A DNA stretch of 64,000 nucleotides from Labrenzia sp. OB1 (lineage in GTDB: Bacteria; Pseudomonadota; Alphaproteobacteria; Rhizobiales; Stappiaceae), in contig NZ_JSEP01000001.1 in NCBI RefSeq assembly GCF_001624695.1, positions 368,079 through 432,078 on the forward strand, in the 5' to 3' direction. The stretch's first letter is position 1, and every line of letters begins with the position of its first letter. Made by a program: the position numbers and the translations under genes. Positions 1 to 7,087 of the stretch are shown piece after piece. The notes under the pieces were generated by a model that was not told where the DNA came from, made no database searches, and saw only the letters and a program-made list of their open reading frames with translations.

Positions 1-673
1 CGCGAGTGAAACCGGTGGTTCTGCCCGATTTGCACAGAATTTCTCCCAGCTCTGGATCTCTCGCTTTCCCGGTCACTGAGAAATTGCCGTATTGAAGCGG
101 CAACCATGGCCGCACGCCGCCAATTTCCGCTATTGCCGCATCCCCGCCTGTTTCCAGCATCCAACGGCTCAGCATCGCCACCTCGTCGCGCACCGGTACG
201 CCGCTGTCGATCTGGCCCGGCTGCACTATCGGGTCCCCCACCATGGCCCGCGGACCCGCAAGCACATGCCAGTTCGACAGGAGCGCCGGCCGGCCTGTCG
301 CCTGGTCGATCACCACCGCACCGATGGTTCCGGTCCCCTCATTGACCCGACCGCAGGACAATCCACCCATCAGATAGGGGCTGCGGACCCGGTGATCGGC
401 GGGAAGCGTCGTCAGATTGACGCGATAGGGACCCTGTATGACGTCGAGGTGAACGCCATCGATCTCTGCGGGGAAGACCTCTGCCGCCTCCAGTTCCGGA
501 ATCGGAATTTTCGCCGCGACGTGAATGCGGGCGCAGAGTCCCTCCGTGCGCTTGCCGCCGTCCCAGCGGTAACCCACGTCGAAGCCGGTCACGTTTCGCC
601 GATGGCCAAAACGCCGTCTGGCCTCCATCATGGCGGCATCGCATTGCTCGCGTGATATCTTTCGGACTGCCAT
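1..673 (-). CDS. Trypsin-fold serine peptidase-like protein (partial, C-terminus off left edge)
   Basis: The frame is open from the ATG at 671-673 down to base 1, so 224 codons are visible and the C-terminus is missing. A GGGAGG ribosome site lies just upstream. The stretch LLSNWHVLAG (His about 136) looks like the catalytic-His block of chymotrypsin-fold peptidases, and GGDAAIAEI (Asp about 178) fits the Asp block. KSGRTTGFT near the edge resembles the strand before the catalytic Ser in Trypsin_2/Nal1-like proteins; the Ser itself would lie beyond the edge. There is no signal peptide: the N-terminus (MAVRKISREQ) is charged. It is read in the same direction as the holin-like gene and the haem peroxidase. 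The fold is fairly sure; activity cannot be judged without the Ser. Confidence 0.75.
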   Translation of the reverse strand, partial: MAVRKISREQCDAAMMEARRRFGHRRNVTGFDVGYRWDGGKRTEGLCARIHVAAKIPIPELEAAEVFPAEIDGVHLDVIQGPYRVNLTTLPADHRVRSPYLMGGLSCGRVNEGTGTIGAVVIDQATGRPALLSNWHVLAGPRAMVGDPIVQPGQIDSGVPVRDEVAMLSRWMLETGGDAAIAEIGGVRPWLPLQYGNFSVTGKARDPELGEILCKSGRTTGFTR

Positions 674-790
674 ATTCCTATCCTCCCGATTTCGAAGACA
701 TGCAAACCGTCGATGTGCTGCCGCGGCTCGGGGCTCTTTCGCCCGAAGAACTGCCGCATGCATGTCGATGAATGCAGTCAACTCTGGTCT

Positions 791-1018
791 TCAGGTCTGT
801 TTGAGGCTCGCGGTCTCCATGACGCCGTCCCGCGCACCTGGTGGAGTGAAGTACCCGAAGGCAAAGACAACCATTGTCGTAATCGCCGCCGAAACCGCCT
901 CGGGGATCACCAGATCTGGGTTCGCCGTCTTAAGCATCCACAGGACGACGGTTATAAAAGCCGTCCCGATCGCGGTGGCGGATACTTTCCTTGCGGGAAA
1001 ATTTGTTTGCATACGCAT
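791..1018 (-). CDS. Small holin-like two-helix membrane protein (75 aa)
   Basis: The start is the ATG at 1016-1018, preceded by AGAAGGAGAAAGACT, a strong ribosome site; an upstream in-frame start would lack one. The protein has two hydrophobic segments, about residues 12-30 and 38-60, separated by a short polar turn (KTANPDLVIPE), and a short charged tail. This layout, with a Pro-Glu turn and a second helix ending in GYFTPP, recalls small putative phage-type holins of alphaproteobacteria. That is a resemblance of layout, not proof of pore formation. The gene lies between a leaderless haem peroxidase (45 bp upstream) and a leaderless trypsin-like protein (about 117 bp downstream), all on one strand. 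It could equally be a membrane anchor or a small unknown protein. Confidence 0.6.
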   Translation of the reverse strand: MRMQTNFPARKVSATAIGTAFITVVLWMLKTANPDLVIPEAVSAAITTMVVFAFGYFTPPGARDGVMETASLKQT

Positions 1019-1062
1019 AGTCTTTCTCCTTCTCTTACTGAAAAATTTTCCGGAACTGGCTC

Positions 1063-2601
1063 TCAAGCGTTGCCGATTGGATTGACGTCCCCGATAAAAC
1101 GCAGCATGTCAGCCATAGTGAAGTGACCGGGAACTTCAGAGGGGAGCTCCGGCCTCCAGTTTGACCGTTGCCACAGGAAGGAACGTTGATCGCCGTGAAC
1201 AAGTCCCAGGAACGTCTCGGCAACAATCGTTGCGCCGACCGGACCCAGGCGACGACCTGCGTGAAGGACCTCCGCCTCTTTCAGGATGTAGAACCACAGC
1301 GGCGTTTTCCGGTGTAGCCCGTGGGCCTCGGCGGCATCTCCCGCGGCACCGGCAGCGACATCCGCAGGTGCCAGCGGCTCAATGCCCATCGCAAGCGCAA
1401 CGTCTTGTCCCGAAGGCAAGCCGATTTGAACGCCGCGCCTCAGATTCCGGAACGCCAGAACGGCTTCTCTGTTCTGTTCTCCGGGCAGTTGCCGCAGCAT
1501 CGGCGCAAGTTGAGGATCGAGCAGGCGCGTTGCGTTAGGCTGAGTGTTTTGATCCAGCTCGAAGAACCGTCGCCAATCGATGATCCAGTTCCCCGGGAGA
1601 CGCTCGAGCTTTCCGCCGGGAACGCGAGGGTGCGCCTGAACATCCGGATCGTTTGCAAGATCACCGAGGATGGCGCCGGACTTGCCTGTGAAACCGAACA
1701 GAAAATCGAGCGTTGCCGGCGTCAAACCACCCTCTCTGAACACACGATTGAAATCGTAGGTCTCACGGACCATCGAGTGCCCGATCCGGTAGGCTGCGGC
1801 GGAAAACTCAGCAGGCATGTATGGCTTCGTCTTGAAACGATAAAAGCGCCTACCTTCATGCTTGATGCGCCGAACCAGACCGCGCTCCGTAAGGCGCTCG
1901 ACCCAATCGAAGAGAACGATCCACTGGTAGTGCCACGTGACGATGCGCCTGGCCTCGTTGAATTGATCCACCCCTTCGAGCATCGGCTGGTTCTGCGAAA
2001 CATATTCCACCACTGCATTGTGGAACTTCAGGAACGCCAGATGCGTCTGTGCGACGGCAAGATTCTCGTCGTTGCGCTCATCTCCGATAAGAGCCCGGCC
2101 CGCGCGATTGCGCGGCAAGTCGTTTGGCAGCGCATTCGGGATGTTGTCAGACGGGCTCGGAGACGTCTTGCCGATCAGAAACTGGTTGCTCGGCCCGTAG
2201 GGAGGCACAGCATTCCGATCGTAGATGTGCGGGCTGAGGCTCGGTCCGTCGGCGTAAAGAGAATCCAGATCAAGCGAAGGGGTACGGAAATTCTCCGTTG
2301 CCGTGGGATCCGACAATTGCTGCGACAGAGGCGTTGTGTCCAGCGTGATGTCGTGATCGACAAATTGCCCGAAATAGGTGTAACCGGCAGGTATCTGCGG
2401 GTTGTCACCGGCGTTCGACTGCGCCGGGTCGTCGACCATCGCTTGCGCAACTTCGAAGAGACTGTCGTCCGCCACAATCAACGGAGACAGACCCGGAAAC
2501 ATGCGCCCGAACTTGCCGGGATCGCCGTGCCCCGACAAAGTATCTAGAGTGTCGTTGGACAGACTTCTTATACTTTTTCCATGTGAACCAATATCGCTCA
2601 T
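1063..2601 (-). CDS. Animal-type (myeloperoxidase/cyclooxygenase superfamily) haem peroxidase
   Basis: This 512-aa protein carries the hallmarks of the animal haem-peroxidase superfamily. GQFVDHDIT has Asp82-His83 as the distal pair. GDERNDE has Arg176 in the place of the catalytic Arg. AAAYRIGHSMVRETY has His275 as the proximal haem ligand. Such enzymes use hydrogen peroxide to oxidise halides or organic substrates. The N-terminus (MSDIGSHGKS) is hydrophilic, with no signal peptide and no membrane segment, so export by the Sec route is not indicated. An AGAAGGAAG ribosome site precedes the ATG. It is divergent from the BTAD regulator across a 310-bp gap, which suggests control by that protein. 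The bacterial members are poorly characterised and the substrate is unknown. Confidence 0.88.
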   Translation of the reverse strand: MSDIGSHGKSIRSLSNDTLDTLSGHGDPGKFGRMFPGLSPLIVADDSLFEVAQAMVDDPAQSNAGDNPQIPAGYTYFGQFVDHDITLDTTPLSQQLSDPTATENFRTPSLDLDSLYADGPSLSPHIYDRNAVPPYGPSNQFLIGKTSPSPSDNIPNALPNDLPRNRAGRALIGDERNDENLAVAQTHLAFLKFHNAVVEYVSQNQPMLEGVDQFNEARRIVTWHYQWIVLFDWVERLTERGLVRRIKHEGRRFYRFKTKPYMPAEFSAAAYRIGHSMVRETYDFNRVFREGGLTPATLDFLFGFTGKSGAILGDLANDPDVQAHPRVPGGKLERLPGNWIIDWRRFFELDQNTQPNATRLLDPQLAPMLRQLPGEQNREAVLAFRNLRRGVQIGLPSGQDVALAMGIEPLAPADVAAGAAGDAAEAHGLHRKTPLWFYILKEAEVLHAGRRLGPVGATIVAETFLGLVHGDQRSFLWQRSNWRPELPSEVPGHFTMADMLRFIGDVNPIGNA

Positions 2602-2911
2602 GGCTTTTACTTCCTTCTGATTTTTATATTTTCTTCAAATATGGAATTCGCCGTTACACGCCGATGCGGGAAACAGACGTTCGCCGCTGGAATGGGTGCC
2701 CCCTCTAGGCAAAACGAGCGTTTCGTCTGGTAGGCATGGCTATTGAACCCGCGCGGCTCAGAAGCAAGCTGGTCTCAGGACGCAAATTTAGCGTTAGCTG
2801 AACGTGAAAATTTCGATAGAATAATATAAAATGAAAATTCAACTGCCCATGAACTCAACCAAACGCATATAAACCACTAATACTTCAGCGTTTTTACTTG
2901 AAAGACATCTG
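2602..2911. promoter_or_regulatory. Divergent promoter region between haem peroxidase and BTAD regulator
   Basis: This 310-bp gap separates two genes read away from each other and must hold both promoters. The half near the regulator is markedly A+T-rich (about 2790-2890) and includes the hexamer-like TATAAA around 2825-2832. I see no clear inverted repeat and no third gene. Confidence 0.4.
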
Positions 2912-4894
2912 ATGATTGTGGACATTTCGCTTTTGACGAGACTTTCATTATCCTGCGGCGGAAGGGACATCACGCCGAACTCGTCAAAGTCCCGAGCGCT
3001 CATCGCAATGATAGCGCTTGCCCGAAACGGACAGGTTTCAAGATCAAGGCTCTCGGAGTTCCTGTGGAGTCCTCCACGGGATCCTCTGGGAAACCTTCGT
3101 CAACTCATCAGTTTCCTGAACGCGCATCTGACCGCAGAAAACGCAAATTTCCTCAAGGCGGACAGGAGGCACGTAGGGCTCGACTTTTGCCGCGTGAGGA
3201 CCGACTTCCACGACCTGGAAGGGTTGGCAAGAGCCGACGACCTGCCGGGAGCCGACAAGATCCGGAACCTTGAAGTCGGGGAAATCCTGGGCGACCTCGA
3301 CATCGGAGAGGCCGCGTTTGAAGAGTGGGCCGAAGAGCAAAGAAGTTATTTGCAGCGCAATACCTATCTTGCCTTGATGCACTTGCTGGAGAGAGCTGAA
3401 GACGCAACGAACGACGCTCTCATTGAAGCCATTTCAGATAAGCTTCTGAAAATCGAACCCGCGTCCGAGGAACCCCACAGGGCACTGATCAAGGTAGCTA
3501 ACAGGCGCGGCGACAAGGGAATGGTCATTGCACGCTATAAAGCATGCGAGGAATCGTTGCGCCGACTGATCGATGCCGACACCTCGCTCGAAACCAGACA
3601 GTTGATGCAGGAAATTCGCTCCGACTGGGCGCTCGCGGCGCAGAAGCCGGCCGGAACGCCGCCGACCGTCCGCTCCGAACCGGACTTGCTCCATCCGAAT
3701 GAACGATCCGATGTCGCGGCTGAAACCCAGGAGAAGACAGGCTCCCCGCTCCTGCGCGTGAACGTACGGCATGTCAACACTGGATCGACGGTCGATGCCC
3801 GCGTCGCCGGACTGATTGATGAATTGGTCTCCGAAGCCCTGGCGGACGCGGCGTGGCTATACAGCGTCGTGGACGACCCCGCAGACATGCTGGACGTTGA
3901 CTACGAACTGGTTTGCAGCGTCTCGCCAACGGAAGAGACGATCCGAATTGGCTTGAGACTGCTGAAGCTACCTGCCCGAACCTTGACATGGATGCAGTTC
4001 GTCGAGACGCCCGCCGCAGATACCATTCGGGCAGCCAAGGAACTGGCAATAGTCGCGACGGCTGCCCTTGAGAGGGAAATCCTGATTTCGGAAACATCCT
4101 CCGCCTGGTCGTGCCCGCCTGAACAACTCAGCGCGCACGGACAGCAGATGCTGGCAATTCCGCTCCTCTTTCGCTTGACCCCCAAGGCCCTGAACGAAGC
4201 TGACTCGCTTTTGACCAGCGCCGCAGAACGATTGCCGCAGAACGGCACTCCGATGGCATGGAAGGCGATCGTCGGCTTCCTGAAGTTTGGCCAGGGGTTC
4301 ACCAGCGACAGCCGTGCTTCCAGAGAAGAACTGCACTTCCTCACGCGAAGAGCACTGGAACTGTCACCCAAGAACGCGTTTGCAGTCACAGTCGCAGGTC
4401 ATGTGGCGGCATTTGTCGAACATGAATACGACCTGGCATTTCAATTCTATGAGCGGGCGCAGCAGCTCAACCCGAGTTCCGCCTATTACTGGGCATTCAG
4501 TGCGCTGGCCCATTGTTACATTGGCAACACGCAAGAAGCGATCGATCGCCTGGAAAAATATCGCAGTCTGTGGCCGATCGACCCCTACCCGCATTTCTTC
4601 AACACGGCCCGCTGCATCGCGGCTTCAATGCACGGGGCTCATGAGATTGCAGTAAGCATTGCCAAGAAAACCATAGCCGAAAATCCGAATTTCAACGCAA
4701 CATATCGCCCACTCATATCGAGTTTGGGTCACTTGAAAAGATATGACGAAGCGAAATACTTCATCGACGAATTGAAACCACGTCAACCAGGATTTTCTCT
4801 CGAATGGTTCAAGAAAAACTACCCGCCACTTAAGTCAGATCAACACGACAATTACATTAACGGATTTATAAAAGCAGGCCTGGAAAAGGATTAA
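2912..4894 (+). CDS. BTAD/TPR transcriptional regulator (SARP-like)
   Basis: This 660-aa protein begins with a winged-helix region (residues about 1-95; SRSRLSEFLW and GNLRQLISFLNAHL fit the recognition part). A bacterial transcriptional activator domain follows at about 100-240, with the typical phrase FEEWAEEQRSYL. A middle region (about 265-400) resembles the adenylate-cyclase-associated linker of similar proteobacterial proteins. The C-terminus (about 440-650) is TPR-like, for example AFQFYERAQQLNPSSAYYW. There is no receiver, sensor or membrane segment. The ribosome site at the ATG is weak. Its position between the peroxidase and the PAP2/subtilase genes suggests it controls the whole cluster. 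BTAD regulators often govern secondary metabolism or secreted functions; that role is inferred here. Confidence 0.82.
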   Translation: MIVDISLLTRLSLSCGGRDITPNSSKSRALIAMIALARNGQVSRSRLSEFLWSPPRDPLGNLRQLISFLNAHLTAENANFLKADRRHVGLDFCRVRTDFHDLEGLARADDLPGADKIRNLEVGEILGDLDIGEAAFEEWAEEQRSYLQRNTYLALMHLLERAEDATNDALIEAISDKLLKIEPASEEPHRALIKVANRRGDKGMVIARYKACEESLRRLIDADTSLETRQLMQEIRSDWALAAQKPAGTPPTVRSEPDLLHPNERSDVAAETQEKTGSPLLRVNVRHVNTGSTVDARVAGLIDELVSEALADAAWLYSVVDDPADMLDVDYELVCSVSPTEETIRIGLRLLKLPARTLTWMQFVETPAADTIRAAKELAIVATAALEREILISETSSAWSCPPEQLSAHGQQMLAIPLLFRLTPKALNEADSLLTSAAERLPQNGTPMAWKAIVGFLKFGQGFTSDSRASREELHFLTRRALELSPKNAFAVTVAGHVAAFVEHEYDLAFQFYERAQQLNPSSAYYWAFSALAHCYIGNTQEAIDRLEKYRSLWPIDPYPHFFNTARCIAASMHGAHEIAVSIAKKTIAENPNFNATYRPLISSLGHLKRYDEAKYFIDELKPRQPGFSLEWFKKNYPPLKSDQHDNYINGFIKAGLEKD

Positions 4895-5029
4895 GGGACC
4901 TGTCTCTCAGATTATTATTTAGCCGCTCACGCGGAATTCACGCTCGATTTACGACCACCTGCAAAAACGCCGTCGTTTTAGGGCGGGCACGAACGATCAA
5001 CGCAGTCAAACGAGAAACGGGGGCGTCAA

Positions 5030-5071
5030 ATGACTATGACTATGACAATGACCATGACGATGACCATGAAC
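5030..5071. repeat. Hexanucleotide tandem repeat at the start of the PAP2 gene
   Basis: Seven tandem units of ATGACN (the last is ATGAAC) span the first 42 bases of the coding region and encode alternating Met-Thr. Every unit supplies an in-frame ATG. Gain or loss of units would leave the reading frame intact but change the distance from the GGGGG ribosome site to the following ATGs. Confidence 0.9.
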
Positions 5072-5734
5072 CAGTTTCCTAGCAGGAACTGGGATCCGGC
5101 TCTTAGGTTCAACCTTGAACTCATAAAGTTCATGGAGGGAGAAAAGGTGTTCGACAGTATCTCCATACCCGATGTCCCAACGCCGGAAGAAACCCGGGTG
5201 GAAATAGAAGAGCTCAAGAGGAAACAAGAAGTTCGTGAGGAAGATACACGCGCCGGCGAAGTCAGGCGTGCACGGATCATTGAACAAATCTCGCTTGTGC
5301 CGGATTTTCACCGCATCCTAATGTTCAATGCCCAATCGCATCCGCATACGAAGCAACTGATGCAGTCGGTGCAGCAATTGGGCACCATCGGATCAATGTA
5401 TTTCAAGGACAAATTCAGGAGACCCCGTCCATCTCAACTTGAGCCCAAGTTACGGCCGCTGATTGATGTCCCGGGCCATCCTTCCTATCCCAGCGGCCAC
5501 GCGACGCAAGCCTATCTAGTCGCACAGGCTTTGGCGACGGTGGTCGGCAATCCCGAAGCCGGCGAAGAACTCATTCGTGTGGCAGACGACGTTGCCGTGA
5601 ACCGGGAATACGCTGGCGTTCATTATGCCAGCGATTCCGTTGCGGGCAAGCAGCTAGCCTACGCTCTCTTTCGGCGGGCGGAAGATTCAATGGTCGAAAC
5701 AATCAAGAACGCCATACAAGAATGGCGGACGTAA
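5030..5734 (+). CDS. PAP2 / vanadium-dependent haloperoxidase-type enzyme
   Basis: This 234-aa protein has the three PAP2 superfamily motifs in order: K-x6-RP (Lys126 to Arg133-Pro134 within KDKFRRPRP), PSGH (residues 154-157), and R-x5-H-x3-D (Arg192, His198, Asp202). These bind phosphate in acid phosphatases or vanadate in haloperoxidases. There are no membrane helices, unlike lipid phosphatases, and no signal peptide, which favours a soluble phosphatase or a vanadium haloperoxidase-like enzyme. It is short compared with classical haloperoxidases. The N-terminus is a Met-Thr repeat; the ATG at 5030 follows GGGGGCGTCAA, but any of the first seven ATGs could serve. The companion haem peroxidase makes an oxidative role attractive. 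The substrate is unknown. Confidence 0.78.
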   Translation: MTMTMTMTMTMTMNQFPSRNWDPALRFNLELIKFMEGEKVFDSISIPDVPTPEETRVEIEELKRKQEVREEDTRAGEVRRARIIEQISLVPDFHRILMFNAQSHPHTKQLMQSVQQLGTIGSMYFKDKFRRPRPSQLEPKLRPLIDVPGHPSYPSGHATQAYLVAQALATVVGNPEAGEELIRVADDVAVNREYAGVHYASDSVAGKQLAYALFRRAEDSMVETIKNAIQEWRT

Positions 5735-5782
5735 CGCTTCAAATACAAGCAACTCATCGCCTAGATAAAACTGGAGTGAGAT

Positions 5783-7087
5783 ATGTTGGACGTTAGATCA
5801 CGCAATACCGACGTAGATTCAGAAAATATTCTGTGGCATCTGCAAGAAAACGGAATTACAAGACATCATCCCGAACAAAACAGACATCGGTCCATTTGCG
5901 GTCTGAACGCCTTAAAGGCACATAACGACGGCCATTTGGGCAAGGGTGTGACCGTGGCGATCATCGACAGCGGCGCCGATCGCGAACACCACAACCTGAC
6001 CGACGCGATCAGCGCCAAGAGCGCCAGCTTCGAAGCCTACCATGACGGCCAGGGACAGACCGCAACCGACAAGAAGATATTCAACCGATTTGACGCCCAT
6101 GGCTCCGCTCTTGCCGGCATCGTTGCGGGGCGACCGAACCACAGAGTATCCGCCGCAGATCTTGACAAGCTCACCCCGCAGGATCAGGCGCTCGTCAAGA
6201 CCTACACCGGCGTCGCGCCCGCCGCCGAAGTGCTGGTTATCAGATTGTTCGTGAACTTTCAGCCGGAGCAATTCGAGTCCGCCTTGAACTATGCGGCAAA
6301 GCACGCGGACGTCTTGCTTCTGGCTCGAACCTTGCCGCAGGTCAGAAAGAAAAGAGCGACAGCCGCCCTGGCGGACGACCCCGATGCTCGAGCCTCAACA
6401 GACACGCTTGACGACAGCAGCTCGTTTTCTCGGATCGAGAGTTTGCTGACGAATATCGCAAAAGAAATGCCGGTCGTCTGTGCAGCCGGAAACGGTGGCT
6501 TCGACGAACTGTCTTTTCCGGCAAGCCTGTCGATGACAATTGCAGTGGGTGCGGTGAACGAGCTGGGGTGGCGCAGTACCTACAGTCAGTACGGATCGGG
6601 CCTGGATGTCGTTGCACCCTCATCCGATGCAGAATTGCTGAACAGAGACCAGAATCGCGTACGGCTGAGCAGAAAAACGGCAAAAGAACGCAGATTCACA
6701 GGCGATCCAAATTCAGAAAGGCTGGGATACTGGGGAATAGTCTCCACCGACAATCACGGTGAATGGGGGTATGTCGGCCTTGTTGGCGAGCCCGGCAATT
6801 TTACGCCCCAAAAGGGCGAGCTGCGTTTTGGCGGCACGTCCGCGGCCGCCGCGCAAGTCGCCGGTGTCGTGGCTTTGATGATCGGAGCTAACCCTGCGCT
6901 GCGGAACAGGCCGGCCAAAATCCGCGAGATACTGCGAAAGACGGCAACTTTCAAGGAACTGGATGATGCGCTGACTCGCGACAACCAGAACCGCCGAGAC
7001 GCGAGCACTCAACCGAGCGCTGAATTCGGTTGGGGCCTCGTCGATGCAACTGACGCTGTCAAAGAAGCCGCCAGGAGCACCGACTGA
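5783..7087 (+). CDS. Subtilisin-like S8 serine peptidase
   Basis: This 434-aa subtilase has a complete apparent triad: Asp62 in VAIIDSGAD, His106 in DAHGSALAGIVAG, and Ser353 in GGTSAAAAQVAG. The oxyanion Asn237 lies in CAAGNGG. The His block departs from the usual HGTHVAG form. No signal peptide, I9 prodomain or C-terminal secretion domain is visible; the protein starts about 50 residues before the catalytic core. A GGAGTGAGAT site precedes the ATG. It lies 48 bp after the PAP2 gene and is probably co-transcribed with it. Subtilases without export signals can act in the cytoplasm or leave by non-Sec routes; which applies here cannot be read from the sequence. Confidence 0.88.
   Translation: MLDVRSRNTDVDSENILWHLQENGITRHHPEQNRHRSICGLNALKAHNDGHLGKGVTVAIIDSGADREHHNLTDAISAKSASFEAYHDGQGQTATDKKIFNRFDAHGSALAGIVAGRPNHRVSAADLDKLTPQDQALVKTYTGVAPAAEVLVIRLFVNFQPEQFESALNYAAKHADVLLLARTLPQVRKKRATAALADDPDARASTDTLDDSSSFSRIESLLTNIAKEMPVVCAAGNGGFDELSFPASLSMTIAVGAVNELGWRSTYSQYGSGLDVVAPSSDAELLNRDQNRVRLSRKTAKERRFTGDPNSERLGYWGIVSTDNHGEWGYVGLVGEPGNFTPQKGELRFGGTSAAAAQVAGVVALMIGANPALRNRPAKIREILRKTATFKELDDALTRDNQNRRDASTQPSAEFGWGLVDATDAVKEAARSTD

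Follow-up and report, generated by a model that had tools for sequence, protein, structure and literature searches.

A recurrent operon of a TPR regulator, a PAP2 enzyme with an N-terminal peptide repeat, and an exchangeable protease in Labrenzia sp. OB1 and its relatives

The closest described relatives of the proteins discussed here are the BTAD/SARP and HilA-like winged helix–turn–helix–TPR factors (PF03704), the class A acid phosphatases and vanadium haloperoxidases (PF01569), and the subtilases (PF00082), with mycosins and intracellular serine proteases among the latter. In Labrenzia sp. OB1, one protein of each type is encoded in a single operon: a BTAD-TPR regulator, a soluble PAP2 enzyme that starts with a tandem peptide repeat, and a subtilase of family S8. 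The operon lies in a stretch of 64,000 nucleotides (contig NZ_JSEP01000001.1, positions 368,079 to 432,078; the window in what follows), beside a divergent group of genes that includes a haem peroxidase.

The likeness to described proteins is uneven. In the regulator, it consists of the BTAD and TPR domains (the match to HilA/EilA is weak, far below cut-off), and plasmid annotations name homologues of the regulator SARP family regulators; in our own reading, its N-terminal start appears to be a winged helix. The PAP2 family shares with phosphatases and haloperoxidases the PF01569 domain and the catalytic motifs. The subtilase matches PF00082, has the intracellular serine protease 7y6m among its matches, and scores 91.4 bits with the mycosin model, under the cut-off of that model (278.75).

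Recurrence of the regulator–PAP2–protease operon

The sample comprises 77 distinct PAP2 places, that is, the loci (L numbers) retrieved in searches of the family, order, class, and phylum plus three plasmids, after removal of duplicates that share the final 450 bases of the frame. It does not cover matches for which no locus was retrieved (10 of 40 in the family search, of which seven were weak, with E > 1e-17), and three places (L109, L110, and L121) came up first in searches for peroxidases. Neighbors were called with our own regulator and S8 profiles within 3 kb of the PAP2 gene. A simple codon-score gene caller misread some loci of high GC content (for example, L200, L202, L340, L342, and L343); L200 and L202 were resolved by six-frame profiles or lists of open reading frames.

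In the family, 25 of 87 genomes have a PAP2 match at E 1e-10, or 23 after dropping G033 and G060, the weak matches of which are PAP2 genes with neither repeat nor operon (L152 and L151, respectively). Matches occur in at least 18 of 397 genomes of the order at E 1e-45 (own genome included), and in at least 13 of 385 genomes of the class and at least 21 of 398 of the phylum at E 1e-25 (own genome included); these three tallies are lower bounds, with four or five candidates scored per genome.

A TPR regulator and an S8 subtilase are both found within 3 kb of the PAP2 gene in 63 of the 77 places. The regulator alone occurs in 11, the subtilase alone in one, and neither in two (L151 and L152), so that a regulator homologue accompanies PAP2 in 74 places. 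Among the 11 places with the regulator alone, five carry an A4 glutamic peptidase instead (Pfam E 8.7e-21 to 1.4e-28 for four places, the fifth recognized by our own A4 profile) and two have a divergent subtilase located beyond the regulator (Pfam E 8e-13 and 1.9e-10). Setting aside L151 and L152, profiles thus recognize an S8 or A4 partner in 71 of 75 places. The class of the protease is exchangeable, which suggests that the operon requires proteolytic activity of some kind. In the preliminary description of the window, the genes around the regulator were suggested to act together, and this is partly supported: association beyond chance holds for the regulator, PAP2, and subtilase genes and for peroxidases near such operons, but the peroxidase, trypsin-like, and holin-like genes are optional.

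The genome of the window contains two further operons of this kind, at C1:204-209 kb and on C30, and the three PAP2 enzymes have MT, GGV, and NGL tails. The operon is present also on plasmids of Rhizobium johnstonii 3841 (pRL12) and Phaeobacter gallaeciensis DSM 26640 (pGal_C110). The N-terminus of the regulator varies, with BTAD in the window, Trans_reg_C in L163, and a guanylate-cyclase domain in L185 and L188.

The catalytic residues of the enzymes are conserved. All three PAP2 motifs, KX6RP, PSGH (with PS[GNA]H accepted), and RX5HX3D, are present in 71 of 75 family members, and the subtilase triad D62, H106, and S353 is invariant in six aligned homologues. The solved chains nearest to the PAP2 family profile are the acid phosphatases 7f17 (E 1.4e-25) and 7f18; the profile also matches 1qi9 (E 2.5e-11). 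On sequence grounds, the enzyme would be assigned to the fold family only, as either phosphatase or haloperoxidase, with acid phosphatases as the closest solved chains.

A periodic N-terminal tail kept at the protein level

The window PAP2 opens with MTMTMTMTMTMTMN, encoded by six ATGACN units with different third bases (T, T, A, C, G, and C). An N-terminal tandem peptide repeat of 10 to 58 residues is found in 73 of the 77 PAP2 proteins, with a period of 3 in 60, 2 in nine, 4 in three, and 6 in one; those lacking it are L151, L152, L169, and L129. There are 38 distinct units, for example MT in the window, NK in Rhizobium, and GGV, SGA, or TGN elsewhere. The same detector found runs, none longer than eight residues, in 9 of 590 other proteins encoded in these loci, versus 47 of 51 PAP2 proteins.

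Between related enzymes, the unit may be replaced throughout or nearly throughout the array: GGI/GGV in L140/L143 (cores 92% identical), SGA/SGT in L147/L148 (86%), and TGV/AGV in L215/L216 (69%). The NK unit occurs in 6 to 8 copies over 14 sequences (12 named Rhizobiaceae plasmids and two relatives) and in 5 to 11 copies over more distant sequences. In L237 (Paracoccus sp. AK26 pAK3), the unit changes within one array, NAHNAHNAH being followed by TAQTAQTAQTAQ.

A phage origin of the enzyme was considered and rejected. A search of 50,697 phage records with the PAP2 of L188 (not with that of the window) gave no match at E 1e-10. The matches on viral contigs are PAP2 relatives in which repeat runs are rare and short, with 3 of 57 frames having runs, of at most eight residues (the 57 being 80 loci minus three at contig starts and 20 duplicates).

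Between adjacent copies, the peptide is identical at 1903 of 2037 positions (93%). The codons at these identical positions agree in 625 of 1903 cases, below the 733 expected from local codon usage and the 699 (standard deviation 17.5) obtained by shuffling synonymous codons inside each array; none of 400 draws or permutations was as low. Restricting the comparison to one array for each of the 38 units gives a codon identity of 307 of 922 versus 339 (standard deviation 12.1), and 2 of 400 were as low; the arrays are related by descent and so do not count as independent trials. The peptide is near-identical while its codons are less alike than permuted ones, which argues for selection on the peptide and against simple slippage. 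Codon divergence of the arrays tracks, with scatter, that of the cores over 19 pairs (L145–L149, array 34/41 and core 252/299; L135–L154, array 16/36 and core 115/253), so the array is not hypermutable.

These data bear on the nature of the repeat. That it is a recently expanded or hypervariable microsatellite is highly improbable: the near-perfect peptide repetition and the variable NK copy number would fit, but the codons of adjacent copies differ more than in permuted arrays and array divergence keeps step with that of the core. Recent slippage or hypermutation as the origin of the repeat is ruled out on the same two grounds. Fast turnover of the array, suspected from the GGV/GGI sister pair, is ruled out by the tracking of the core. 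The simplest reading is that the homogeneity of the peptide itself is under selection. An ordinary phosphatase operon, serving phosphate or lipid metabolism with the tail as a passive spacer, would agree with the acid phosphatases being the closest solved chains; such an operon is unlikely, since a passive spacer needs no near-perfect periodicity held against codon drift and a dedicated protease of exchangeable class is left unexplained.

The reading that we tentatively prefer, as possible rather than probable, is that the core is a three-gene effector operon in which the protease acts on the periodic PAP2 tail and the regulator controls the operon. The TPR regulator would switch on the operon and set its timing. 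The PAP2 enzyme would be made without a leader, its tail serving as an element for recognition or self-assembly; period 3 would suit a poly-glycine or polyproline II-like extended helix and period 2 a beta-strand. The co-encoded protease would then act on the tail or on the enzyme, releasing or switching PAP2, and differing units could keep several such systems apart within one cell. In the window, the divergent optional genes would supply additional payload, oxidative as well as proteolytic, and possibly a way out of the cell.

Several observations weigh against this three-gene reading. In L206, the neighbor is papain-like but under the Pfam cut-off; in L207, it has an HEFGHY motif with no Pfam match (a call by motif only); and L174 ends at a contig edge. 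L169, the only place that has a regulator but neither a repeat nor a recognized S8 or A4 homologue (over the 19 kb covered by L186), would speak for the reading, but it is a single example. In L129, the regulator and S8 are kept with a degenerate HGD repeat that stays under the threshold (its close relative L132 carries HGD copies). Most S8 calls rest on our own profile: the L109 subtilase scores 17.2 bits versus a Pfam cut-off of 21.8, and the partial subtilase of L222 has no Pfam match. Lastly, the repeat units (NK, NAD, GGV, TGN) have no common chemistry, which argues against one fixed binding partner.

A more specific and unlikely proposal makes the tail a private self-recognition code. 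In each operon, the protease and/or the TPR regulator would recognize that operon's unit, or tails would polymerize only with tails of the same kind, giving several insulated effector systems per cell; selection would hold the peptide copies identical and scramble the codons to stop DNA recombination. Alternatively, the protease could free repeat peptides that the TPR regulator senses, in intracellular or local signaling of the RRNPP type. RRNPP systems are defined by a secreted pro-peptide and a helix–turn–helix–TPR receptor that binds the peptide. A TPR regulator, a short multi-copy peptide, and a protease are indeed encoded together in most places examined, and the unit differs among the three operons of the window's genome; the window regulator has BTAD and TPR domains, with peptide binding putative. 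Signaling of this type is nonetheless improbable: by hydropathy, neither the window PAP2 nor its subtilase has a signal-like segment as expected of a secreted pro-peptide, no export or uptake gene is fixed to the operon in 62 loci, and units of 2–4 residues are very short.

The divergent peroxidase half

The trypsin-fold, haem peroxidase, PAP2, subtilase, holin-like, and BTAD genes reported in the preliminary description are all present according to Pfam and PHROG matches (Table 1). By hydropathy, the peroxidases and serine peptidases are leaderless, as that description stated: no 19-residue segment above 1.6 occurs in the peroxidase, S1, BTAD, PAP2, or S8 proteins, and five occur in the holin-like protein.

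Table 1. Coordinates of the features in the window
Feature	Positions	Strand	Evidence
Trypsin-like (S1) protease, N-terminal part	1..673	-	phrog_20754 protease, E 4.4e-27, window fragment
Holin-like membrane protein, 75 aa	792..1018	-	phrog_9284 holin, E 2.4e-7
Animal-type haem peroxidase (An_peroxidase, PF03098), 512 aa	1063..2601	-	Pfam E 7.6e-23
Intergenic DNA separating the divergent halves, presumed promoter region	2602..2911	.	Sequence only
BTAD-TPR regulator, 660 aa	2912..4894	+	PF03704 E 5.6e-6, TPR matches
Six ATGACN units encoding the MTMTMTMTMTMTM tail of PAP2	5030..5069	+	TRF period 6, 6.7 copies, 88% matches
Soluble PAP2 (acid phosphatase/vanadium haloperoxidase fold family), 234 aa	5030..5734	+	PF01569 E 4.1e-9
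Leaderless subtilase (S8), 434 aa	5783..7087	+	PF00082 E 2e-35

Leftward from the regulator come the peroxidase, holin-like, and trypsin-like genes. The last crosses the left window edge and continues for ~890 bases; extension along the same contig, as the preliminary description had advised, yielded the full S1 frame of 520 amino acids and, next to it, an outer-membrane-like protein of 370 amino acids, with what we read as a signal-like start and an EF-hand-like loop. In our reading of the open reading frames, the flanks on both sides resemble ABC-importer genes. The H, D, and S motifs of the S1 protein, which we take to be catalytic, are invariant in three homologues; its C-terminal half contains a WPWPWPW run (L008:17111-18370, strand -). 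The peroxidase belongs to the PF03098 superfamily (81.3 bits, cut-off 25), and its Q79, H83, D84, and H275, presumably of the haem pocket, are invariant in eight aligned sequences. A search of the window's own genome gave one peroxidase match at E 0.001.

In the genus (45 genomes, own included), 16 have a peroxidase match. The peroxidase lies within 10 kb of the PAP2 operon in three of them (G000, G023, and G042) versus 0.07 expected from 21 gene pairs placed randomly in 6 Mb genomes (P 5e-5; pairs hand-counted from match tables, with PAP2 matches of E ~1e-40 or lower). Omitting the window's own genome, which prompted the test, leaves two versus 0.06 expected (P 0.002). The test for co-occurrence that the preliminary description had called for thus comes out above chance. 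On the other hand, the best 80 of 318 peroxidase relatives (39–61% identical; up to 9 kb covered to either side, less where a contig ended, for a total of 1.42 Mb) have no PAP2, S8, S1, or A4 match with our own profiles, and a regulator-like match occurs in three. For this part of the set, it is the outcome that the preliminary description had named as refuting; the peroxidase is ruled out as the center of the system.

Among 62 larger loci, a peroxidase-like gene occurs in six and an S1-like gene in three, the window being one of each. The peroxidases beside the operon are those of the window, L109, L110, and L121, with shorter homologues in L346 and L347 (304 and 331 amino acids, that of L346 with no Pfam match). 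The window peroxidase is 59% identical to that of L117 and 34–36% to those of L108, L109, L110, and L121; it is of another subfamily than the latter four, so that peroxidases of two subfamilies have joined such operons. The S1 profile matches 6 of 87 family genomes at E 1e-15, at full length only in the window and G014, both of which are in the query alignment; in both, the gene is beside peroxidase, holin-like, and outer-membrane-like genes. In L183, an S1 homologue adjoins the operon with no peroxidase. The left half (peroxidase, holin-like, trypsin-like, and outer-membrane-like genes) is an optional add-on.

Such genes could also point to an antagonism module, secreted or released by lysis, along the lines suggested in the preliminary description: oxidants would come from PAP2 and the peroxidase, and competitors would be attacked by the proteases. 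In addition to the peroxidases beside the operon, a holin-like gene adjoins the peroxidase in the window, L011 (region of L108), and L013 (region of L110), a LysM-CHAP gene is near L161, amidase and CHAP genes are near L108, and HlyD and ABC exporter genes are near at least 4 of the 62 loci (L239, L352, L346, and L347; two pairs of similar loci). The exporter, lysin, and holin-like neighbors fit antagonism only loosely, and we consider this explanation doubtful: most of the 62 loci have no such neighbors, L109, L110, and L121 were found first via peroxidase searches, the L161 holin match is below the cut-off (E 0.033), and the L346 peroxidase homologue is without a Pfam peroxidase match. No immunity gene was recognized, though none was searched for, and PADLOC returned one generic subtilase model only for six window proteins.

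Other arrangements were observed around these genes. In L346 and L347, the operon is followed by the short peroxidase-like gene and by convergent HlyD and ABC exporter genes. In L125 (Rhizobium sp. T1473), a domain like the window S1 occurs in a 632-residue protein annotated as a DNA/RNA non-specific endonuclease, beside a tyrosinase. In L126 (Rhizobium sophoriradicis pCC511_1), genes for a peroxidase, a DyP-type peroxidase, a C25 peptidase, a ferritin-like protein, and a radical SAM protein are clustered, with no PAP2 annotated there. YcaO genes are near L108, L112, and L185; in L108 and L112 (same genus), a YcaO cyclodehydratase adjoins a BTAD-type regulator homologue, with a small open reading frame and a peroxidase nearby. 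ThiF and annotated HEXXH peptide-modification-like genes follow the NK-type operon (R. johnstonii; L122, L181, and L182). Biosynthesis of ribosomally synthesized and post-translationally modified peptides was not adopted as an explanation, such partners being seen but not general.

Comparison with described systems

The preliminary description could match the genes to no named system, and our searches concur. No catalogued system was matched in family searches of the window and relative proteins, the generic subtilase model being the sole hit to known anti-phage defense for the six window proteins, and no paper on the regulator–PAP2–protease combination was found among open-licence PMC articles. 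With regard to type 10 (holin/endolysin) secretion, in which leaderless cargo goes with a holin and a peptidoglycan hydrolase, the window has a holin-like gene with no hydrolase recognized beside it, and the amidase and CHAP genes near L108 and the LysM-CHAP gene with its under-threshold holin match near L161 are in other loci. PepA of Pseudomonas putida and MopA are described as bacterial animal-type haem peroxidases (PMC3396595, PMC6247904) and, going by name, share the superfamily of the window peroxidase; the window peroxidase adjoins a PAP2–protease operon, whereas its best 80 relatives do not.

The operon differs from its closest relatives in each of its three genes. Unlike in BTAD/SARP and HilA-like factors, the regulator here has a repeat-tailed PAP2 and a protease as its constant partners, and relatives carry guanylate-cyclase or Trans_reg_C domains. 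Compared with class A acid phosphatases and vanadium haloperoxidases, the PAP2 enzyme has an N-terminal tandem repeat and operon partners and, by hydropathy, is leaderless in the window. In contrast to subtilases and mycosins at large, A4 glutamic peptidases occupy the protease slot in 5 of the 77 places. Almost every member of the enzyme family examined is repeat-tailed, the unit differing among lineages and the repetition being conserved, with a regulator and an exchangeable protease alongside; the repeat-tailed PAP2 could represent a novel means by which an enzyme is tagged, assembled, or switched.

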